Below are positions 11,062 to 47,922 of a stretch of 64,000 bases of DNA, in pieces; positions within the stretch are counted from its first letter, which is position 1; the number at the start of each line of letters is the position of its first letter. Origin of the DNA: an uncultured Prevotellaceae bacterium. Its GTDB lineage: Bacteria; Bacteroidota; Bacteroidia; Bacteroidales; Bacteroidaceae. The position numbers and the translations under genes were made by a program. The notes below the pieces were generated by a model. That model made no database searches. It had not been told where the DNA came from and saw only the letters and a list, made by a program, of their open reading frames with translations. The stretch is taken from the NCBI GenBank assembly GCA_902799765.1, contig CADCBZ010000013.1:1-64000 (forward strand). Reading direction: 5' to 3'.

Positions 11062-13683
11062 TTAGTCTGACACTTTCTCATATTCGAGCGACGCCCAGAT
11101 GAACGGACCGACGCCTTTGGCATCGTTGTCGCGGATGGGCTCCGAGAGATAGTATTCATAACTGCCGTCGCGACGCTTGTTCTCCTTTACGCTACCCTTG
11201 GGATTGATTTTCTTCATGGCAGCGATCACCTGTGGCGTGGCTGCAGGACCGAGACCTGCCACTTCGCAGCACTGGGTCAGGGAGATGGTTTTGTCAGCAT
11301 TCACACGGATGAAGTTCTTGAGAATACCCTGATAGGCCTTGATACCTGCATTGCGGTATTTCTCGCCAAGATAGCCCTTGTTGTAAGCTTTCATTAGTAC
11401 GTAGGCAAACATAGAAGTGCAGGTTGACTCCAGGTAGTTTCCTTCGCGACCAGGTTCATCCATCACCTGATACCAAGCGCCTGAAGCTTGGTCTTGCCAT
11501 TTGATCACTGCGTCCAGATCTTCCTGCAACAGGTCAAGTACCTCACCACGACGGCTGTAGTCTTCGGGCAGGGCATCCAGTACCTCGATGAGTGCCATGG
11601 AGTACCAACCTTGGGCACGGCCCCAGCAATGCTGTGAGAGTCCTGTCTCCTTATCGCTCCAGAAGGCATCACGTGTCTCGTCATAGGCATGACGGTTCAG
11701 ACCTGTCTGGGGATCCAAAGTGCGCTCGTAGGTGATCTTCAGTTGATTCACAGCATCATCGTAAATCTTGATAGCATCCTTCGGCTTTAACTGAGTAGAA
11801 GCAGTGAGACAACGGAAGGGGAGCCCCATGAAGATGCCGTCGAGCCAGACCTGATAGGCATAGATGGCCTTGTGCCAGAATACTTTGTCAGTGATGGTGC
11901 GAGGCTGATTCTGCAACTGCTTCATCATCGTGTTGATAGCCAGTTTGTTTTTAGCCTCTGGATAGAGATTGTACATGCGTGTCACGAAATGACCTGTACG
12001 GATGTTGTCAAGGTTATAATCCAGGATGTTATAACCGCGGATGTCACCTTTCTCATTAATCATGGTGTCAGTATATTCCTGACAGTATTTGCGGATATCT
12101 TCACCACCATAGGCAAGATAAGTATCCAGCATGCCTTCGAGCTCGATACCCATTACATAACTCCATTTGGGACTCTCTGAGAAGTCGAGCAGAAAACTCT
12201 TCGGCACGCGTTTCATCTCTGAATAAGTGAGCCACTCTGAGTAATGCTCATAAGGTGCCTTCAGCAGTGAGAGACTACCATTAATGAATAGATTCTCAAA
12301 GTTTATGTTGCGGGTCTTGCCAGACATGAAGTTACCGTCCTTGACACCATTGAACTTACAATCCTTGACGGTGATATCATAGACGTAGGTGTCTTCATCA
12401 AGACCGATAATCTGCACACCATATTGTGAAGACTCACTGGTTACATTCTCCATATAGACGTTGCGGACTGTCGGATAATAGCCGCGGCAGCAGATCTCTT
12501 TGGGTTCGTAATCGAGATTGATCTTCAATACAGATTCCTTGCAGACACCAACCTTTACATTACGCATGTTGATATTCTCGATGATACCACCACGACAGGA
12601 ATTGGTCTTGATGCGGAGCACACGCTCCAATTCTGGAGAATCCATCACGCAGTCGTGGGCAAACACATTCTGACAACCACCGGAGATCTCAGAACCGATC
12701 ACCACACCGCCATGTCCGTTCTTCATCTCACAGTTGCGGATAATGATGTTCTTAGAAGGCATATTACGCTCTCGACCATCACGGTTTCTACCGCTCTTAA
12801 TGGCGATACAGTCATCGCCAGTGTTGAAGTAGCAGTCTTCGATCAGTACGCGGTCGCAACACTCGGGGTCGCATCCATCACCGTTAGGACCGTCGTTGAT
12901 CATTTTGACACGACGCACGGTAATGTCTGTGGAGTGGAGGGGATGAATCACCCAGAAAGGCGAACGGAGTAAGGTCACATCTTCTAACAGAATGCCTTCG
13001 CATTTGTTGAAGCTGACCAGCTGCGGACGCAAACCATCCTGTGGACCGAATACGCGCTCGGGCGTGCGTTCCCCTTTTTCATTATACATAGGGATGCCAT
13101 CCTCACCATTTTTCAGCAGACGGGGACGTGACTCGATGCGCTGGCTGATCATACCTTCTTTCCAACCAAAACGGGGATTACCATTCCAAGGCCACCAGGT
13201 ATCATTGGAACCGCCACCGTCAATGGTGCCTTTACCGGTGATGGCGATATCCTTTGCCTTGAAGGCATAGATGCAGGGGGAGAGGTTGAAACACTCCAAT
13301 CCTTCCCATGAGGTCTCCACGATGGGGTAGAGCTCAGGCTGAAACACAAACTCAAGTGTTGCACCCTCCTCAACAACAAGGTTCACACCGTCCTTCAGTG
13401 TGATGGCTCCAGTAAGGAACTTCTCACCAGCAGGGATAATCACCTTGCCGCCACCTTTCTTAGAACAGGCATCGATAGCTTTTTGGATAGCTTTCTGATT
13501 TTGGGCAGCAGGGTTAGTTGTTTTTGCGCCGAACTTAGTGATTGGAAAGGGCTTTTCCGCAAACTGCGGCACACGGATGCTTTGCTCTATTTGCTGATAC
13601 ATCCCCTCATCCCAGTCTTGTGCAACTGTGATGATGGGTGCCAGCAGAGAACACATCCACAATACTAATAGTTTTTTCTTCAT
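11062..13683 (-). CDS. Secreted GH28 polygalacturonase fused to GH105 unsaturated-galacturonyl hydrolase
   Basis: 873 aa from the start chosen here. A longer frame reaches 13713, but that codon lies inside the -7 promoter element (13711-13718), and Met at 13683 begins a clean signal peptide (MKKKLLVLWMCSLL). GH28 part (about 45-470): NDGPNGDGCD (263-272), TGDDCIAIKSG with D290/D291, GHGGVVIGSE (323-332), the classic catalytic set. GH105 part (about 500-873): WLDGIFMG, WGRAQGW and ESTCTSMFAY, typical of enzymes that remove the 4,5-unsaturated uronic acid left by lyases. The fusion would cut polygalacturonan or rhamnogalacturonan and trim the lyase products of the neighbouring PL10. First gene of the SusCD transcript. 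Confidence 0.9.
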   Translation of the reverse strand: MKKKLLVLWMCSLLAPIITVAQDWDEGMYQQIEQSIRVPQFAEKPFPITKFGAKTTNPAAQNQKAIQKAIDACSKKGGGKVIIPAGEKFLTGAITLKDGVNLVVEEGATLEFVFQPELYPIVETSWEGLECFNLSPCIYAFKAKDIAITGKGTIDGGGSNDTWWPWNGNPRFGWKEGMISQRIESRPRLLKNGEDGIPMYNEKGERTPERVFGPQDGLRPQLVSFNKCEGILLEDVTLLRSPFWVIHPLHSTDITVRRVKMINDGPNGDGCDPECCDRVLIEDCYFNTGDDCIAIKSGRNRDGRERNMPSKNIIIRNCEMKNGHGGVVIGSEISGGCQNVFAHDCVMDSPELERVLRIKTNSCRGGIIENINMRNVKVGVCKESVLKINLDYEPKEICCRGYYPTVRNVYMENVTSESSQYGVQIIGLDEDTYVYDITVKDCKFNGVKDGNFMSGKTRNINFENLFINGSLSLLKAPYEHYSEWLTYSEMKRVPKSFLLDFSESPKWSYVMGIELEGMLDTYLAYGGEDIRKYCQEYTDTMINEKGDIRGYNILDYNLDNIRTGHFVTRMYNLYPEAKNKLAINTMMKQLQNQPRTITDKVFWHKAIYAYQVWLDGIFMGLPFRCLTASTQLKPKDAIKIYDDAVNQLKITYERTLDPQTGLNRHAYDETRDAFWSDKETGLSQHCWGRAQGWYSMALIEVLDALPEDYSRRGEVLDLLQEDLDAVIKWQDQASGAWYQVMDEPGREGNYLESTCTSMFAYVLMKAYNKGYLGEKYRNAGIKAYQGILKNFIRVNADKTISLTQCCEVAGLGPAATPQVIAAMKKINPKGSVKENKRRDGSYEYYLSEPIRDNDAKGVGPFIWASLEYEKVSD

Positions 13684-13710
13684 ATTTAGTTCGTAGTTCA
13701 TTTCTGAGCA

Positions 13711-13718
13711 CAAAGGTA
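13711..13718 (-). promoter_or_regulatory. -7 element of the GH28-GH105/susC/susD unit
   Basis: TACCTTTG on the minus strand matches TAnnTTTG. No clear -33 TTTG at the usual distance. The predicted start of transcription (about 13705) lies after the longer-frame start codon and so fixes translation at 13683. Confidence 0.65.
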
Positions 13719-13772: not shown

Positions 13773-14549
13773 TTACCTAGAAAGAGCCTCGAAGAGTTTG
13801 TCAAGTGCCTCGTCAGCATCTTTGCTCTCATTTAATAGGGTAACGAACTTTGAACCGATGATGGCGCCGGCGGCATTCTGCTGGGCGGCCTGAAGGGTTT
13901 GCTGATTACTGATTCCGAAACCGATCATCCGCGGATTCCGCAGCTGCATGGCATTGATACGACGGAAATAGGCCTGTTTGGCGTCATCGAAGGATTTTTG
14001 AGCGCCTGTAATAGCAGCTGATGATACCATATAAATGAAACCGTCGGTATGTTCATCGATAAAACGGACACGTTCCTCACTGGTCTCTGGCGTGATGAGC
14101 ATGATGATACGCAGGTCGTAACGGTCTGCTACAGGTTTCACGATGTCGAGATAGTCCTTGAAGGGCAGGTCGGGAATGATGGCTCCGCTCACACCGCTTT
14201 CGGCGCAACTCTGACAGAAAGCCTCGATGCCGTAGTGTAGGATCGGATTCAGATAGCCCATAAGTACCAAGGGCATCTTGACTTCGTCTTTGATGCTCTT
14301 CAGCTGCTCGAAGAGTTTTTTCAGACTCATGCCGTTTCGTAAGGCCTGGGTAGCTGCACTCTGGATGACAGGACCGTCAGCTAACGGGTCACTGAAAGGG
14401 ATGCCTACTTCTACCATGTCGATACCTCGACGCTGGGTTGCCAAGATAATATCTGTTGTACTCTCAAAAGTCGGACAGCCGGCACAGAAGTAAAGCGAAA
14501 GCAGCTTGCGGTCCTGGGTATTTGCGAAGAGTTGATTGATTTTATTCAT
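13773..14549 (-). CDS. trpA: Tryptophan synthase alpha subunit
   Basis: 258 aa, normal family length. Cleaves indole-3-glycerol phosphate to indole and glyceraldehyde 3-phosphate in complex with TrpB. Catalytic Glu47 and Asp58 lie in the MVEVGIPFSDPLADGPVIQ segment (equivalent to E49/D60 of E. coli). Last gene of the trp operon; its start overlaps the trpF end by 8 nt. It is unusual that trpA and trpB lie at opposite ends of the operon. Confidence 0.97.
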   Translation of the reverse strand: MNKINQLFANTQDRKLLSLYFCAGCPTFESTTDIILATQRRGIDMVEVGIPFSDPLADGPVIQSAATQALRNGMSLKKLFEQLKSIKDEVKMPLVLMGYLNPILHYGIEAFCQSCAESGVSGAIIPDLPFKDYLDIVKPVADRYDLRIIMLITPETSEERVRFIDEHTDGFIYMVSSAAITGAQKSFDDAKQAYFRRINAMQLRNPRMIGFGISNQQTLQAAQQNAAGAIIGSKFVTLLNESKDADEALDKLFEALSR

Positions 14550-15147
14550 GATGCAGTTGTTTTAAGAAATTACTAAGTTTTGTGATGTCTTTAAGAGCAG
14601 GTGCCTGTTCGAAGCGTGAGTTCAGGTCGATACCGATGCATTTGGAATGATGGAAACTGTTGACAGCTTCTACATCATCAGGACCGATGCCTCCACTGAG
14701 CAGGAATGGTGTCTCCCCGTGGTAGGATGAAAGCACGGACCAGTCGAACTTCTCCCCATTGCCGCCAACAACCTTTCCTTTTGTGTCGAAGAGGAAATAG
14801 TCAACGATGCCTTCATACGCCTTCGTCTGATTGAGATCTTTTACATCGGCGATATTGAAAGCTTTGATCACAGACAATGGCTTCAGTGCTTCGGCAAAGG
14901 CAGGCGTTTCATGTCCATGCAGTTGGATAAGATCGAGCTGATAGTCACTGACATGCTGACGTATATACTCCAGGCTTGCATCGACGAACACCCCTACACG
15001 GCGTATTTGCTTAGGCTGATAGGTTGGCACATCGGCTACATAACGGCTCGATTTAGGCCAGAAGATCATACCCATCCAGTCGATACCAAGCTGTTCCACT
15101 GCTTGGATGTTGACGGCATCCCGCATGCCACAGACTTTGATTATCAT
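14542..15147 (-). CDS. trpF: Phosphoribosylanthranilate isomerase
   Basis: 201 aa TIM-barrel enzyme with the KVCGMRD start and a GIDLNSRFE phosphate-binding end. Converts phosphoribosylanthranilate to CdRP. Separate from trpC, unlike the enterobacterial TrpC-TrpF fusion. Its start overlaps the trpC stop by 4 nt (ATGA), so translation is probably coupled. Confidence 0.96.
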   Translation of the reverse strand: MIIKVCGMRDAVNIQAVEQLGIDWMGMIFWPKSSRYVADVPTYQPKQIRRVGVFVDASLEYIRQHVSDYQLDLIQLHGHETPAFAEALKPLSVIKAFNIADVKDLNQTKAYEGIVDYFLFDTKGKVVGGNGEKFDWSVLSSYHGETPFLLSGGIGPDDVEAVNSFHHSKCIGIDLNSRFEQAPALKDITKLSNFLKQLHHE

Positions 15148-15932
15148 AGTTGAGATAAGAATTGATGAAGTGCCAAACCAGGATCCGGCTCCTTCATGAA
15201 TGTCTCGCCAATGAGGAAACCCTGATAGCCAACGGCTTTAAGCTGACGGATGGTGTCGATGTCGCTGATGCCACTCTCACTCACCTTAACAGCATCTGCA
15301 GGCAGACGTTCAATCAGATTAAGCGAGTTATTCACATCGGTAATGAAAGTACCGAGGTTCCGGTTGTTGATGCCGCACATATCTGGTTCCAACTCTGCAT
15401 ACTCTGTTTCTTCTTCTGTATGCATCTCCAACAACACCTCAAGGTTTAGTTCGTGGGCTTTGTTGATAAGGTCTCTGCATTTCTCCTTGCTGAGACAGGC
15501 TGCGATGAGTAATACGGCAGAGGCACCACAGACTTTGGCCTGATAGAGCTGATATTCATCGATAATGAAATTCTTATAGAGTATAGGAATATATACCTTC
15601 TCCTGTCTGGCCATTCGGATGTGGGCATTGCTACCACCGAAGTATTCTGAATCTGTCAGGATACTCAGGGCTGTGGCACCGTTTTTCTGATAGCTGTAGG
15701 CAATCTTTTCTGGTGAGACATCGCGGGCGATCCAGCCTTTGGATGGTGACTTGCGCTTAACCTCTGCAATAATACCTGTGGTGGCGTTTGTCAAAGCCAA
15801 CTTCATGGAAACCACTTCTGATCTGTGGAGAATCTCCACGCGACTCTCCAGAAATACCTGCGAAAGCTCTTCCTTATATTTTGCTACTTCCTTCTGTTTG
15901 TGAGCAACAATCTCATCTAAAATATCTCCCAT
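15144..15932 (-). CDS. trpC: Indole-3-glycerol-phosphate synthase
   Basis: 262 aa. EVKRKSPSKG near residue 60 holds the catalytic Lys/Glu of the family, and later segments LLEMHTEEE, GINNRNL and VSESGI are all typical. Closes the indole ring from CdRP. 4 bp after trpD. Confidence 0.97.
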   Translation of the reverse strand: MGDILDEIVAHKQKEVAKYKEELSQVFLESRVEILHRSEVVSMKLALTNATTGIIAEVKRKSPSKGWIARDVSPEKIAYSYQKNGATALSILTDSEYFGGSNAHIRMARQEKVYIPILYKNFIIDEYQLYQAKVCGASAVLLIAACLSKEKCRDLINKAHELNLEVLLEMHTEEETEYAELEPDMCGINNRNLGTFITDVNNSLNLIERLPADAVKVSESGISDIDTIRQLKAVGYQGFLIGETFMKEPDPGLALHQFLSQL

Positions 15933-15936
15933 AACC

Positions 15937-16947
15937 TTAACTATTTAGTTCTACAAACTTCTTGAATGTGGCGAGTGCCTTACCGCTGTCAATACTCTCT
16001 CTGGCAATAGCGATGCACTCTTCAATACTCTTCTGCCCTTTTTCCAGTACCTGGATACCGAAGGCGGCATTTGCCAATACGATGTTCTTTTGTGCAGGCA
16101 GAGCCCGATTCTCCAGCACGCTATCGAAGATTTGGGCAGCTTCCTCCTCGGTTGCACCACCTACCAACTCCTCTGGTTTGGCAATATCGAAACCTAAATC
16201 GGCAGGGGTGAATACCCGCTCATATTGGTTGGTGGTCACCTTGAATGGACCTGTCAGTGAGATCTCGTCGTAGCCGTCGATGGAGTTTACAATACCATAG
16301 TCGATGCCGATCTTCTGATATACATTATTATATAAACGCATCTGGTCGAGGTTGGCGACACCAAGCAGCTGACATGGGGGCTGACTGGGATTCACCAGCG
16401 GACCTAAGAGGTTGAAGATAGTCGGAAACTGAAGTGCTTTGCGGATAGGACCGACAAACTTCATAGCCTTTGCGAAAAGTTGGGCGTGCAGATAGACGAT
16501 ACCTGCTTCGTCGAGCGAGCGGTTCAGACGATCGATATCATCAGTAAACTTGATACCATGATGCTGAATTACGTTGGAAGCACCACTCACGGAGGTGGCG
16601 GCATAGTTGCCATGTTTTGCCACCTTGTAACCTGCGCCTGCAATGACGAAACAGGATGTTGTGGAAATGTTGAAGGTGTTCTTCCTGTCACCGCCTGTGC
16701 CCACCACATCGATATAGCGGTCTGCTTTCAACAAGGCGGGAACACCTGTTTCCAGGATACCGTCACGGAAACCGAGCAGTTCATCTACGGTTACACCGCG
16801 CATCTGTAAAGCGGTAAGCAGTGCTGTGATCTGCTCTGTCGGATAATCCGAATGGGTGATACCGATCAGGATATTCTTCATCTCTTCACGGGAGAGCTCC
16901 TCGTGGTTCAACATTCTGTTGAGTATATCTTTCATTGTCTGTGCCAT
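15937..16947 (-). CDS. trpD: Anthranilate phosphoribosyltransferase
   Basis: 336 aa. Contains VVGTGGDRKNTFNIST and KHGNYAATSVSG, the PRPP- and anthranilate-binding motifs. Transfers phosphoribosyl to anthranilate. Stand-alone form, not fused to TrpG; trpG lies 33 bp upstream. Confidence 0.97.
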   Translation of the reverse strand: MAQTMKDILNRMLNHEELSREEMKNILIGITHSDYPTEQITALLTALQMRGVTVDELLGFRDGILETGVPALLKADRYIDVVGTGGDRKNTFNISTTSCFVIAGAGYKVAKHGNYAATSVSGASNVIQHHGIKFTDDIDRLNRSLDEAGIVYLHAQLFAKAMKFVGPIRKALQFPTIFNLLGPLVNPSQPPCQLLGVANLDQMRLYNNVYQKIGIDYGIVNSIDGYDEISLTGPFKVTTNQYERVFTPADLGFDIAKPEELVGGATEEEAAQIFDSVLENRALPAQKNIVLANAAFGIQVLEKGQKSIEECIAIARESIDSGKALATFKKFVELNS

Positions 16948-16980
16948 AACCTCATTATTTTAATGTATATTTTTTAATGT

Positions 16981-17544
16981 TTAAAGGAATAACCAGTTTT
17001 GCAGCATCTTCCTACCATCGGGTGTGAGTACGCTTTCAGGGTGGAACTGGATACCCCTGATGTTTAATGTCTTGTGGCGGAGTGCCATAATCTGACCTTC
17101 ATCACTCTCTGCGGTAATCTCCAGACAATCTGGAAATCCTTCTTTCGATACCACCCAGGAATGATAGCGTCCCATTGTGATACGTGTAGGCAGACCACTG
17201 AACAGGGGATCGTTGCCAAACTGCGTACCTTCTGTTGCTACACCATGGAACACGTCACTCAGATTCTCCAACTTTCCACCGAACACTTCGCCAATGGCCT
17301 GATGACCAAGACAGACACCGAGGATCGGCTTATGTCCTGCGTAAGTGCGGATGACATCACAGAGCAGACCTGCCTCCGAGGGAATACCAGGGCCTGGCGA
17401 AAGGATGATCTTCGAATAGGGCTCCAGCTCAGACAGTTCGAACTGGTCGTTACGCAACACAGTCACTTCTGCTCCCAGTTCCTTTACCAGATGACTCAGA
17501 TTATATGTAAACGAGTCGTAGTTGTCGATAATTGCTATTTTCAT
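16981..17544 (-). CDS. trpG: Anthranilate synthase glutamine amidotransferase subunit
   Basis: 187 aa class I amidotransferase with DNYDSFTYNL, the nucleophile Cys in GVCLGHQAIGE and the His-Glu pair in QFHPESV. Supplies ammonia to TrpE. In some bacteria this subunit also serves aminodeoxychorismate synthase; no pabB is in view here. 30 bp after trpE. Confidence 0.95.
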   Translation of the reverse strand: MKIAIIDNYDSFTYNLSHLVKELGAEVTVLRNDQFELSELEPYSKIILSPGPGIPSEAGLLCDVIRTYAGHKPILGVCLGHQAIGEVFGGKLENLSDVFHGVATEGTQFGNDPLFSGLPTRITMGRYHSWVVSKEGFPDCLEITAESDEGQIMALRHKTLNIRGIQFHPESVLTPDGRKMLQNWLFL

Positions 17545-17574
17545 CGTCTTTATAATTTGTCTGTTCTGTTATCA

Positions 17575-18966
17575 TTACATATCTTCTGCCATCAGGATGG
17601 CTCTGCGTAGGGCACCAAGTTTGTTGTTTACCTCCTGCAACTCGTATTCCACATCGCTCTTAGCCACGATGCCACCACCTGCTTGGAACCAGAGTTCTCC
17701 GTTTCTGGCCACAAACGTACGGATGGTGATGGCCTGGTTCAGTGAGCCGTCCAGTCCGATATAGCCGATACAGCCGCCATAGGCACCTCTGTTATGTGGC
17801 TCATATTCCGAAATGAGCTGCATAGCTCTTACCTTAGGTGCTCCACTGAGTGTTCCTGCAGGGAAGGTATCGATAAAGGCCTTGATGGGATCAGCACCTT
17901 CGTCAAGCGTTCCACTTACACGACTCACGAGATGGATCACGTGAGAGTAGTATTGAAGATCTTTATAGAAGTCCACCTTTACACCATGACAGTTACGCGA
18001 CAGGTCGTTACGGGCCAGATCTACCAACATCACGTGTTCGGCATTCTCCTTAGGATCGTTTCTCAGATAGTCGGCCCCCTGACGATCTGCTTCGGCATCA
18101 CCTGTCCTTTTAGTCGTTCCTGCAATCGGGTCGATATAAGCTTTGCGATCCTGAATGCGACAGTGGGTTTCTGGTGAAGAGCCGAAGATGCGGAAGCCGC
18201 CGAAGTCGAAATAGAAAAGGTAGGGTGAGGGGTTAATACTGCGCAATGCACGGTAGAGTTTGAAGTCGTCACCCTCATAACGCTGTTTGAAACGACGGGA
18301 GAGTACGATCTGGAACACGTCACCTCTTAGACAGTGCTGGATACCTTTGCGGATATTCGCCTTATGCTCCTCATCGGTGAGTGTGCTTGTGGTGTCACCC
18401 ACGGGATGGAAATCATAGGTCTGTATGTTGGTGCGGTTCATGGCTTTCTGTAACTGATCCAGTTCCTCTGCCTCACCTAATGTCACCAGCGTCAACAGGT
18501 TGTTGAAGTGGTCAAACACTATCACCTCTTTATAGAGAATATAGAGCATATCGGATGCATCGTTCTTGGCTTGGGTCTCATCCTTGACTGCGATGTTCTC
18601 GAAATAGCGAACGGCATTGAATGAGGTATAGCCGTATAGACCGCAGATCTTGGCTTGTTCTCCAGTCACCTCGATGCGGTCTATGAGTGCATGGATAGCC
18701 TTATCACAGCCGTATTCGTTGCTTACTGCATGGCGCTCCTTACTGCCGTCAGGGAAACTGATGGTTGCCTCACCATGTCCGATAGCGACAGAGGCGATGG
18801 GATTGATACCTATAAACGAACGGGAGTTATCCTTCTCGTGATAGTCGGAGCTCTCCATCAGGGCACTCTGTGGGTAGAGGTCTCTCAACCGCATATACAC
18901 GCCTACTGGTGTATAAAGGTCTGCCAGAATCGTCCGGCTGTGAGTCGTATATTTAAAAGTTTCCAT
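17575..18966 (-). CDS. trpE: Anthranilate synthase component I
   Basis: 463 aa chorismate-using enzyme with RNDLSRNCHGVKV, PAGTLSGAPKVRAMQLI and GGCIGYIGLDG. Makes anthranilate from chorismate with TrpG ammonia. Its start overlaps the end of trpB by 14 nt. The ESS-type segment (MESSDYHEKD, residues about 38-47) suggests tryptophan feedback binding, as known in the family. Confidence 0.96.
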   Translation of the reverse strand: METFKYTTHSRTILADLYTPVGVYMRLRDLYPQSALMESSDYHEKDNSRSFIGINPIASVAIGHGEATISFPDGSKERHAVSNEYGCDKAIHALIDRIEVTGEQAKICGLYGYTSFNAVRYFENIAVKDETQAKNDASDMLYILYKEVIVFDHFNNLLTLVTLGEAEELDQLQKAMNRTNIQTYDFHPVGDTTSTLTDEEHKANIRKGIQHCLRGDVFQIVLSRRFKQRYEGDDFKLYRALRSINPSPYLFYFDFGGFRIFGSSPETHCRIQDRKAYIDPIAGTTKRTGDAEADRQGADYLRNDPKENAEHVMLVDLARNDLSRNCHGVKVDFYKDLQYYSHVIHLVSRVSGTLDEGADPIKAFIDTFPAGTLSGAPKVRAMQLISEYEPHNRGAYGGCIGYIGLDGSLNQAITIRTFVARNGELWFQAGGGIVAKSDVEYELQEVNNKLGALRRAILMAEDM

Positions 18967-20161
18967 ATTCCTTTGCCATTAGTTTGTTATTCAGATAAGT
19001 CTCTACATCCTTGTCGCCACGTCCGCTAACAGTCAGCACCACCACGTCTGTGGGTTTGAAGGTGAGTTTCTTCAGTGCGGCGATGGCATGTGCCGACTCG
19101 ATGGCAGGGATGATACCCTCCATACGTGTCAGTTCGTAACCACCGTAGATAGCCTCGTCATCGTTGATGCTCAGCACTTCCGTACGCCCTTTCTTGGCCA
19201 TGTTGCAGTGCATTGGCCCAACACCAGGATAGTCCAGTCCTGCAGAGATGGTGAAGGCTTCCTCTATCTGTCCGTCTTCGTTCTGCATCACTAGCATCTT
19301 GGCACCATGTAGGATACCCGTTGTGCCTTTATGGATGGTGGCAGCAGTGTGGTTGGTCTCCCAACCATGTCCGCCAGCCTCTGCCAAAACAATCTTCACG
19401 CGCTCGTCGTTCACATAGTGGTAGATGGTACCTGCAGCATTAGAGCCACCACCGATACAGGCGATGAGGTAATCGGGATAATCGCGTCCGATCTTCTCCT
19501 CAAGCTGCCATTTGATCTCTTCAGAAATCACACTCTGCATCTTGGCCACCAGGTCGGGGTAGGGGTGTGGACCCATGGTAGAGCCTACGATGTAGAAAGT
19601 GTCGGCGGGATGACAGCACCAGTCACGGATGGCCTCAGAGCAGGCATCGCTCAGTGTCATGTTCCCTGTCCTTACAGGATGCACCTCTGCCCCCAGCATC
19701 TTCATACGTTCCACGTTGGTGTGCTGGCGCTCCACATCGGTGGCACCCATAAACACTTCGCACTTCATGTTCATTAGGGCGCAGACTGTTGCGGTGGCTA
19801 CACCATGCTGCCCTGCACCAGTCTCGGCGATGATACGGGTCTTACCCATCTGCTTGGCGAGCAGGATCTGTCCGATGGTGTTGTTAATCTTGTGTGCGCC
19901 TGTGTGGTTCAGGTCTTCACGTTTCAGATAGAGCTGACAGCCATAGTGCTCACTCATCCTTTTGGCAAAGTAGAGGGGAGAAGGACGACCTACATAGTCC
20001 TTCAGGAGTGCGTGATACGCTTCTTTAAACTCTGCCGACTCGATGATGGGCAGATAAGCCTCCTGCAGATCGTGTACGCACTTGTAGAGTATCTCAGGCA
20101 CGTAGGCACCTCCGAATTCTCCGTAAAAACCTCTTTCATCTACAAAATAGTTCTCTTTCAT
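18953..20161 (-). CDS. trpB: Tryptophan synthase beta chain
   Basis: 402 aa PLP enzyme with the cofactor Lys91 in LNHTGAHKINN and the phosphate loop GGGSNAAG. Joins indole and serine. First structural gene of the trp operon, about 115 nt after the leader peptide and 31 nt after the attenuator hairpin, so it is the first gene controlled by attenuation. Confidence 0.97.
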   Translation of the reverse strand: MKENYFVDERGFYGEFGGAYVPEILYKCVHDLQEAYLPIIESAEFKEAYHALLKDYVGRPSPLYFAKRMSEHYGCQLYLKREDLNHTGAHKINNTIGQILLAKQMGKTRIIAETGAGQHGVATATVCALMNMKCEVFMGATDVERQHTNVERMKMLGAEVHPVRTGNMTLSDACSEAIRDWCCHPADTFYIVGSTMGPHPYPDLVAKMQSVISEEIKWQLEEKIGRDYPDYLIACIGGGSNAAGTIYHYVNDERVKIVLAEAGGHGWETNHTAATIHKGTTGILHGAKMLVMQNEDGQIEEAFTISAGLDYPGVGPMHCNMAKKGRTEVLSINDDEAIYGGYELTRMEGIIPAIESAHAIAALKKLTFKPTDVVVLTVSGRGDKDVETYLNNKLMAKEYGNF

Positions 20162-20192: not shown

Positions 20193-20222
20193 AAAAAAGA
20201 CTCGCCGCTGTCGCGACGAGCC
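20193..20222 (-). terminator. trp attenuator (terminator hairpin of the leader RNA)
   Basis: On the minus strand: CTCGTCGC (20220-20213), GACA loop, GCGGCGAG (20208-20201), extended by two base pairs, then TCTTTTTT. The stem has a G-U pair. Its left arm shares TCGCGAC (20216-20210) with a competing partner, GTCGCGAG at 20272-20265, which is placed right after the leader peptide stop codon and can form an antiterminator. Confidence 0.88.
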
Positions 20223-20264
20223 TTCTTCTATCTTCTGTTTGAATGATAACAAATGGCTAAGTGC

Positions 20265-20272
20265 CTCGCGAC
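20265..20272 (-). promoter_or_regulatory. Antiterminator strand of the trp leader
   Basis: GTCGCGAG can pair with TCGCGAC in the terminator left arm (7 bp), or alternatively with CTCGAGA (20286-20280) inside the last leader codons (6 of 7 bases). This gives the 1:2, 2:3 and 3:4 arrangement of a classic amino-acid attenuator. Confidence 0.75.
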
Positions 20273-20276
20273 TATT

Positions 20277-20324
20277 TTAATCTCGAGTACGCCACCACCA
20301 AATGTTATACATACAATTGTTCAT
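20277..20324 (-). CDS. trpL: trp operon leader peptide
   Basis: 15 codons: MNNCMYNIWWWRTRD. Three consecutive Trp codons (TGG x3, residues 9-11) lie just before the RNA strand that would pair with the antiterminator strand. Starts about 20 nt after the predicted transcription start. A ribosome stalled on the Trp codons would cover strand 1 and let strands 2 and 3 pair, which prevents termination. Weinberg et al. described a Bacteroid-trp RNA motif in this position, and this element may be a member. Too short for usual gene callers. Confidence 0.88.
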   Translation of the reverse strand: MNNCMYNIWWWRTRD

Positions 20325-20349
20325 ATTGTCTTTTTTAAGTTTCTGGGTG

Positions 20350-20380
20350 CAAAGTTAAGCATTATTTTCTTACTACCAAA
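20350..20380 (-). promoter_or_regulatory. trp operon promoter
   Basis: Minus strand: TTTG (20380-20377), 19 bp, TAACTTTG (20357-20350). Full consensus. Predicted start near 20344, giving a leader RNA of about 180 nt before trpB. Confidence 0.88.
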
Positions 20381-20396: not shown

Positions 20397-20428
20397 TTTG
20401 ATAAAATGAAAGAAAAAGTGTAATTTTG
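20397..20428 (+). promoter_or_regulatory. Promoter of the hotdog thioesterase gene
   Basis: TTTG (20397-20400), 20 bp, TAATTTTG (20421-20428). Divergent from the trp promoter; the two -33 boxes are 16 bp apart. Confidence 0.8.
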
Positions 20429-20449
20429 CCGACGATTTATCGTAAAACT

Positions 20450-20863
20450 ATGACTTTAAAAGACTTTTTATCACAAAATGACCGTTTTGCCGCCAATAGC
20501 GGTTGTATATTAAAAGAGGTTCGCGAGGGCTATGCCCGTGCAGAAATGGTTGTCACGTCAGAACACCTGAATGCTGGTGGTGTCTGTCAGGGTGGAGCTT
20601 ATTTCACGCTGGCTGATATCGCCTTGGCTGCTGCCATGAACAGTCGGGGGACACTCACCTTCGGCATCGAGAACAATATCGTGTTCTTGCATAGTGCTAA
20701 GGCTGGCGATACTCTTATCGCAGAAGCCACCGAGGTGTTCAACCATCACAAGATTCCCTATGTTGATGTGCGAATTACCAATCAGCAGGGCGAACTCTGC
20801 TGTGTCGTAACAGGGATGGCATACAGAAAAGCCGCCGATCTTCCGATCGACGGCTTGGAATAA
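20450..20863 (+). CDS. PaaI-family hotdog-fold acyl-CoA thioesterase
   Basis: 137 aa. The start at 20450 was chosen because a possible TTG at 20426 lies inside the -7 box. The segment NAGGVCQGGAYFTLADIALAAAM holds the hotdog helix with the Asp used by PaaI-type thioesterases. It hydrolyses acyl-CoA esters; the substrate is unknown. In PaaI proteins it can be phenylacetyl-CoA, but nothing nearby supports that pathway. Single gene. Confidence 0.85.
   Translation: MTLKDFLSQNDRFAANSGCILKEVREGYARAEMVVTSEHLNAGGVCQGGAYFTLADIALAAAMNSRGTLTFGIENNIVFLHSAKAGDTLIAEATEVFNHHKIPYVDVRITNQQGELCCVVTGMAYRKAADLPIDGLE
20826..20856 (-). terminator. Terminator of the ROK gene inside the thioesterase 3' end
   Basis: 12-bp stem with one mismatch (20829-20840 with 20845-20856, TTCC loop), followed on the minus strand by TTTTC. 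It lies within the coding end of the opposite gene. Confidence 0.65.
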
Positions 20864-47668: not shown

Positions 47669-47731
47669 GGCTTGACGCTTTGCGTCGAGCCCTACCTCGG
47701 CTCGGCAGAATTGGAGCAAGCTCCATTCTGC
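47669..47731 (-). other. Two strong hairpins between riboswitch aptamer and btuB start
   Basis: Hairpin A: 47705-47717 with 47720-47731 (one bulge). Hairpin B: GGCTTGACGC/GCGTCGAGCC (47669-47678, 47682-47691). Neither has a T-run. They may be the expression platform of the riboswitch or inserted palindromic elements. Confidence 0.55.
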
Positions 47732-47737
47732 TCTCTC

Positions 47738-47905
47738 CTTCGGTAGGTCTTCTGACTTTCCCCAGTCTGCTTTACCTTCCCGACCCTGTGGTCAGTGGCG
47801 TTACACAAGCAAACCCTTCAAAGGGGGATTACAGCTGCAGGTACAGTTCCGGACTCTCACCGGATTCCCTTACATCAGGCGGCATCGGCCACCAGATTAC
47901 CATAA
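47738..47905 (-). ncRNA. Cobalamin riboswitch
   Basis: Minus strand contains the aptamer core GGGAATCCGGTGAGAGTCCG (about 47871-47852), then GAACTGTACCTGCAGCTGTAA, and the B12 box AGTCAGAAGACCTACC (47757-47742), all in normal order and spacing. Binds adenosyl- or methylcobalamin and lowers expression of the btuB-cbiK-receptor operon. No terminator follows, so control of translation is likely. Confidence 0.93.
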
Positions 47906-47914
47906 TTTCGTGGG

Positions 47915-47922
47915 CAAAGATA
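47915..47922 (-). promoter_or_regulatory. -7 element of the riboswitch operon
   Basis: TATCTTTG on the minus strand, directly upstream of the aptamer; no clear -33. Confidence 0.7.

Follow-up and report, generated by a model that had tools for sequence, protein, structure and literature searches.

A predicted ribosome-mediated tryptophan attenuator before the trpB-first operon of an uncultured Prevotellaceae bacterium and its recurrence among relatives

A stretch of 64,000 nucleotides from an uncultured Prevotellaceae bacterium (contig CADCBZ010000013.1, referred to here as the window) carries a full trp operon on its minus strand. According to Pfam annotation, the gene order downstream of the leader region is trpB-E-G-D-C-F-A, and the trpB-first arrangement proposed in a preliminary description of the sequence is borne out. 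Three of the four genes tested against NCBIfam (trpB, trpD, and trpG/pabA) scored above cut-off; trpE fell below its own (415 vs. 518 bits), so that its identity depends on Pfam and on context. The leader region sits between trpB (20161-18953, minus strand) and a divergent 4HBT thioesterase gene (20426-20863, plus strand). A 4HBT gene divergent to the trp operon occurs likewise in 7 of the 61 leader-bearing same-genus fragments (the window being counted among the 61), and in L037, L042, L051, L189 (3804), and L208 (3951) it lies on the trp strand immediately before trpB. Elsewhere in the window, a GH28 and GH88 fusion gene is located downstream of the trp operon (11062-13713, minus strand), with domains of pectin degradation, and a Cobalamin riboswitch is found at 47725-47919 of the minus strand (79.4 bits vs. 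a cut-off of 31.5).

The element before trpB is very probably an ordinary ribosome-mediated transcription attenuator for tryptophan. At the level of sequence, this reading is based on a promoter match, an ORF with three consecutive UGG codons, conserved 1:2 and 3:4 helices, an overlapping 2:3 pairing, a terminator with a T-run, and the complete trp operon that follows. The same switch recurs before the trp genes of many related bacteria, and it represents a known type of control, not a new one. The features of the element and of the operon are collected in Table 1.

Table 1. Coordinates of the attenuator features and trp genes in the window
Feature	Position	Strand	Basis and remarks
Promoter, -33 element TTTG	20377..20380	-	Sequence
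Promoter, -7 element TAACTTTG	20350..20357	-	Sequence; spacing to -33 element 19 nt
Leader ORF MNNCMYNIWWWRTRD, 15 codons, stop UAA	20277..20324	-	Sequence
Control codons, three consecutive UGG	20292..20300	-	Sequence, alignment; third UGG also pairs in lower 1:2 helix
Strand 1	20279..20295	-	Alignment A1 and RNAalifold; lower helix 20295-20291, upper helix CUCGAGAUU 20287-20279
Strand 2	20253..20273	-	GUCGCGAG 20272-20265 and AGCC 20258-20255
Strand 3	20210..20228	-	Terminator 5' arm and part of loop
Strand 4 and T-run of intrinsic terminator	20193..20208	-	T-run 20198-20193
trpB, first structural gene	18953..20161	-	Pfam PF00291; NCBIfam TIGR00263 above cut-off
trpE, trpG, trpD, trpC, trpF, trpA	13773..18966	-	Pfam

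Promoters of Bacteroidota follow the consensus -33 TTTG / -7 TAnnTTTG. In the same-genus set, TAnnTTTG was found upstream of 60 of 61 leaders with a WW run (window included), and within 90 nt and together with a TTG in the -33 zone, which is a loose check of that element, in 59 of 61 (window again included). No Shine-Dalgarno-like GGAGG occurs before the leader ATG in the window sequence; leaders of Bacteroidota usually have no Shine-Dalgarno sites. Strand 2 has two possible partners, namely strand 1 in a pause hairpin and strand 3 in a candidate antiterminator, and it is GGCU (20222-20219) and UCGCGAC (20216-20210) of strand 3 that pair with it in the alternative fold. The terminator hairpin (20228-20193) comprises 16 bp in the computed fold and ends 31 nt before the trpB ATG (20161). 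The fold energy of the leader is -52 kcal/mol (z -6.25), and none of 200 shuffles was equally low. The interval given in the preliminary description (20193-20380) spans the whole element, to which the present analysis adds the strand. The promoter, the 15-codon leader, and the three UGG codons that it reported were all found at minus-strand coordinates within this interval, the pairing strand that it placed just after the leader stop was located at exactly the coordinates claimed, and the terminator with its T-run and its distance to trpB agree as well; that account was correct in every checked detail.

The preliminary description had also suggested a comparison with relatives. A TrpB search in 120 same-genus genomes (E<=1e-100) revealed the protein in 94 genomes at 97 places, and after exclusion of three places with trpB at a contig start (G119:C48, G071:C184, and G096:C69), 93 upstream regions and that of the window, 94 altogether, were examined. 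The Trp codons are kept: a WW leader ORF lies just before trpB in 61 of these 94 regions (window included) and in 79 of 80 loci of a named set, the exception (L146) beginning inside the leader. The named set contains the best 80 of at least 575 loci and leans to close relatives; its titles are mostly Prevotella, Prevotellaceae, and Xylanibacter, with some Bacteroidaceae and Bacteroidales and one uncultured bacterium. The named and same-genus sets partly overlap: the 140 leaders represent 126 distinct 80-nt cores, and 11 named cores are identical to same-genus ones. A terminator-like hairpin (-12 kcal/mol or better, at least three T in the next 8 nt) is present in 139 of the 140 WW leaders.

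That a third of the relatives have no leader, as the 33 remaining same-genus regions might suggest, was rejected, since a covariance model (R1), constructed from 93 of the leaders and run over the same 120 genomes, accounts for the leaders of all 33. For 26 of them, the genome has an R1 match that shares contig and strand with trpB and lies 0.9-4.6 kb upstream of it; for three (G011, G021, and G038; L201-L203), the match is on another contig, before trpD; two (L010 and L019) are contig ends with an adjacent match; and in two (L090 of G093 and L091 of G114), a W-R-W leader occupies the usual position and gives a weak match (37 and 43 bits). Just upstream of trpB, trpA and/or a same-strand 4HBT gene was observed in 24 of the 33 fragments, and trpF in one. 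In all six genomes opened among the 33 (G006, G011, G021, G024, G038, and G118; loci L183, L201, L202, L203, L208, and L209), trpD stands behind the leader, the place of the leader in the remaining genomes being deduced from R1 positions. Trp codons that are separated, not consecutive, were observed as W-R-W in L090, L091/L210, L212, and L220, and as C-W-C-W in L195.

Across the 94 trpB-bearing genomes, an R1 match at E<=2.8e-13 was detected in 91, the others being G093, G114, and G071, in which trpB begins at a contig end. None of the 26 genomes without trpB had an R1 match better than 1.3e-6. The presence of the attenuator follows the need for it, with strong R1 matches tracking the trpB-bearing genomes. 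Weak matches (35-38 bits) in G017 and G084 (both without trpB), G071, and G111 were set aside as terminator look-alikes, the corresponding loci (L204-L207) having no Trp-rich leader; R1 also matches the opposite strand of many such terminators (17-38 bits).

Helices 1:2 and 3:4 were analyzed in an alignment (A1) of 93 of 139 leaders retained after near-duplicate removal, with L149 excluded for its weak hairpin. RNAalifold placed helix 1:2 at columns 15-19/56-60 and 24-32/39-47 and helix 3:4 at columns 106-119/126-139. In these 93 leaders, 97.0% of the cells of both helices are paired and both-side changes occur in 15 of 27 pairs; neither the paired fraction nor the number of both-side changes was reached by any of 500 shuffles, and sliding the structure left only 38-52% paired. 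Ten of the 14 terminator pairs show both-side changes. The covariation of stems 1:2 and 3:4, which had been proposed as a check on relatives, was therefore found. It also bears on the possibility of a constitutive terminator beside a chance Trp-rich ORF, with no regulation at all: although the regulation is a prediction from sequence, the conservation and covariation of the leader and the confinement of strong R1 matches to genomes with trpB speak against this reading, and its probability is close to nil.

In helix 1:2, GCC of strand 2 pairs with the third UGG codon and the base after it, and the hairpin thus includes leader codons. At pair 27-44, 51 of the 93 leaders have A-U and 39 have G-C. 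In the named set together with the window (80 rows, of which L161 was excluded from the count), the two sides of this pair agree in all 79 rows scored, with at least five changes on the trpB tree; independent pairs on well-supported branches number only three, which does not suffice for a sign test.

Alternatively, the leader peptide itself could be the agent, either as a nascent peptide responding to free tryptophan within the ribosome, as TnaC does, or as a trans-acting product similar to the rhizobial peTrpL. Many relatives do appear to conserve the residues after the Trp run (WWWRNSRFKQS type). However, a natural experiment is provided by frame shifts. In L095, the closest named relative (TrpB 99% identical, trpB DNA 86%), the sequence after the Trp codons is CGTAACTCGAGATTAAAATAG, whereas the window has CGTACTCGAGATTAAAATAG, and owing to this one-base deficit the window reads RTRD-stop in place of RNSRLK-stop. 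Of 80 leaders, 14 (the window among them) have a shifted frame, and all 14 have CTCGAGAT intact, read in the other frame; the reading frame of CTCGAGAT changes at least six times on the trpB tree, the peptide differing (RTRD, RSRD) and the RNA remaining unchanged. Because CTCGAGAT stays intact across these changes, the segment that follows the Trp codons is, to judge from the sequences compared, conserved as an RNA strand. Moreover, strand 2 shows covariation with column 27, which in most leaders is a third codon position. Trans action of peTrpL has been described in Sinorhizobium meliloti (PMC7298713), but here the frame-shifted leaders keep the RNA and not the peptide, so that a peptide-level function was rejected as the main constraint and a sensing or trans-acting peptide appears unlikely; as the agent of control, the peptide has only a slim chance. 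The constraint on the RNA and that on the peptide can thus be told apart through naturally occurring frame shifts, with no need for mutagenesis.

The third pairing of the predicted attenuator is the candidate antiterminator 2:3. The 2:3 duplex of the window has an energy of -19.8 kcal/mol (z -4.6), which none of 200 shuffles attained. When the RNA was folded from the presumed edge of a ribosome halted at the final Trp codon through strand 3, at least five 2:3 pairs (median 12) were formed in 91 of 93 leaders, with fewer than five in L064 and L094. Before strand 4, 84 of the 93 leaders form 10 bp or more vs. 8.2% of mononucleotide shuffles, and 63 form 12 bp or more vs. 2.3% of shuffles. Strands from the same leader also fit each other better than exchanged ones, with a mean of -12.78 vs. 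-11.22 kcal/mol for swapped duplexes (the best of 2000 permutations reached -11.97) and with 66 of 93 own duplexes better than their swapped mean. On the other hand, column-wise covariation in one fixed register was not above shuffles for 2:3 (0.114 vs. 0.124), and a test of the 2:3 duplex energy of each sequence, applied to 55 of 61 leaders (those with no terminator or a weak one by a stricter detection being excluded), gave p<=0.05 in only 10 of the 55. For another 33 sites in 31 loci, folding of the RNA made before strand 4 gave no z below -1.6; at least eight pairs between strand 3 and the preceding stretch were present in 29 of them.

Three leader subtypes (A, B, and C) could be distinguished, and the window belongs to subtype A (24 of 93). 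Strand 2 of subtype A reaches -18.6 kcal/mol with strand 3 of its own type and -9.4 with that of type B, whereas strand 2 of B and C pairs better with the subtype A strand 3 (-12.7 and -15.4) than with its own (-11.1 and -9.9). Of the claim that three mutually exclusive pairings match the logic of Escherichia coli, the covarying 1:2 and 3:4 helices are upheld, as is 2:3 in its position and length, and single-register covariation of 2:3 is not significant. At equilibrium, 90 of 93 stalled fragments favor the terminator fold, and antitermination would therefore have to be kinetic, that is, dependent on the order of synthesis. In the E. coli paradigm, the attenuation switch is likewise decided by the order of synthesis.

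The predicted switch would operate as follows. When charged tRNA-Trp is scarce, the ribosome would stall on the UGG run and mask strand 1, leaving strand 2 free; 2:3 would then form before strand 4 is synthesized, and transcription would continue into trpB. When charged tRNA-Trp is plentiful, the ribosome would arrive at the stop codon (20279), and as the footprint of its front extends over about 15 nt, it would mask strand 2 to about 20267; 2:3 would be blocked, 3:4 could form, and transcription would end at the T-run. If no translation takes place, 1:2 would form and 3:4 would also terminate. A protein or tRNA that binds the leader RNA directly, in the manner of TRAP or a T-box and with the ORF being incidental, might be suspected from the highly structured leader. 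However, in-frame UGG runs occur in 140 leaders, and searches of the bacterium's own genome at E<=0.001 (positive in controls; assembly 94% complete) returned no match to TRAP (TrpBP, PF02081), T-box (RF00230), or TrpR (Trp_repressor, PF01371). Control by TRAP, a T-box, or TrpR was rejected on this ground, and direct binding in general appears highly improbable.

Comparison with known systems helps to place the attenuator. The trpL leader of E. coli has a short leader ORF, pairings 1:2, 2:3, and 3:4, and UGG codons in strand 1, a logic that the window leader shares, with 2:3 as a candidate pairing. Unlike trpL, the window has three consecutive UGG codons, not two, no GGAGG before the leader ATG, a trpB-first operon, and no TrpR match in the genome. 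Kinship is supported with the Bacteroid-trp RNA motif (RF01692), which was listed in 2010 as a likely cis-regulatory RNA of Bacteroidetes (Weinberg et al., PMC2864571). In 2019, Flavobacterium psychrophilum was noted to carry this motif before its trp operon, with a comparison to E. coli (PMC6414381), and a transcriptome of the same species offered clues in 2021 for leader-peptide attenuation of amino acid operons (PMC9723704). No experimental study of this attenuator in Prevotella was found in the freely accessible literature covered.

Like the window leader, Bacteroid-trp occurs in Bacteroidota before trp genes, carries UGG in its first hairpin, and has the same order of parts. Its model ends within strand 3 and has no terminator or antiterminator pairing. 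The peptide after the Trp run is RTRD or RNSRFKQS in the group of the window vs. RPLQLRQS and RPLQLLQS in the high-scoring L175 and L177. The preliminary description had suggested that the element may belong to this motif. The window scores 34.1 bits against RF01692, below the gathering cut-off of 49, and is absent from a gathering-level scan; it is therefore placed in the same lineage as a relative, and not ranked as an Rfam-grade member. Homology itself is indicated by R1, which matches all 22 RF01692 sites in 20 fetched loci (43-104 bits) and 33 of the 34 genomes above the RF01692 cut-off, missing G137 (compared by genome, not by place). RF01692 matches 82 of 201 family genomes at E<=0.1, 34 of these above cut-off, in a search whose stricter filters drop weak matches. 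R1 at E<=1e-8 matches 174 of 301 family genomes and 25 of 30 genera, a proportion that forms no strict ratio with the 34 of 201 for RF01692 because samples and thresholds differ. Since R1 was built from close relatives and matches above-cut-off members of RF01692, the sequence evidence supports a place for the window leader in the Bacteroid-trp lineage, as a diverged relative that goes undetected at the Rfam threshold.

In another phylum, trp attenuators of Actinobacteria have complementary triples (gGCC-rGCy-GGCC) common to antiterminator and terminator (PMC1262725), and the window leader resembles them in this respect, the likeness being one of description. Candidate attenuators lie before both trpB1EDGC and trpB2A of Corynebacterium diphtheriae (PMC1262725), so that there is precedent in principle for placing a second trpB under attenuation.

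The latter point is relevant to copies of the leader before other genes. Fifty-one leader sites were opened in a non-random selection (RF01692 matches, extra matches, and multi-match genomes; four more loci, L204-L207, had no leader), and the first gene behind them is trpB in 28, trpD in 11, a TrpB-like gene in 11, and a contig edge in one (L197). A split operon with one leader before trpB and another before trpD was found in G188, G206, and G320. In G206 and G320, leader copies within a genome are 89% identical, whereas copies at the same place in the two genomes are 91-92% identical, and this higher same-place identity hints that the duplication may be older than the split between G206 and G320.

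The TrpB-like gene (TIGR01415/NF009057) has its own leader in 10 genomes of genera g1, g10, g19, g21, and g24 (loci L192, L193, L195, L196, L198, L211, L213, L216, L219, L222, and L224); the proteins of L193 and L196 score above the NF009057 and TIGR01415 cut-offs, and the others were identified by tblastn to L196. In the genus of the window, the gene is present in 95 of 120 genomes, and only three of these (G047, G070, and G116) have a strong adjacent R1 match, so that it was rejected as a general target in this genus. Sixteen of the 26 same-genus genomes without trpB (at the threshold used) keep the TrpB-like gene, with an in-frame stop in two of the 16, and there it perhaps serves indole salvage in tryptophan auxotrophs.

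With copies before trpB, before trpD, at both halves of split operons, and before TrpB-like genes in 10 genomes of five genera, we lean toward regarding the attenuator as a portable cis-element from which a small tryptophan regulon is built and which may have put the TrpB-like enzyme under tryptophan-starvation control in some Bacteroidota. A motif listed in 2010 only as a likely cis-regulatory RNA gains a full, testable anatomy and a covariance model, R1. If the proposed mechanism is true, ribosome and polymerase would have to stay close to each other at this locus in a Bacteroidota bacterium.
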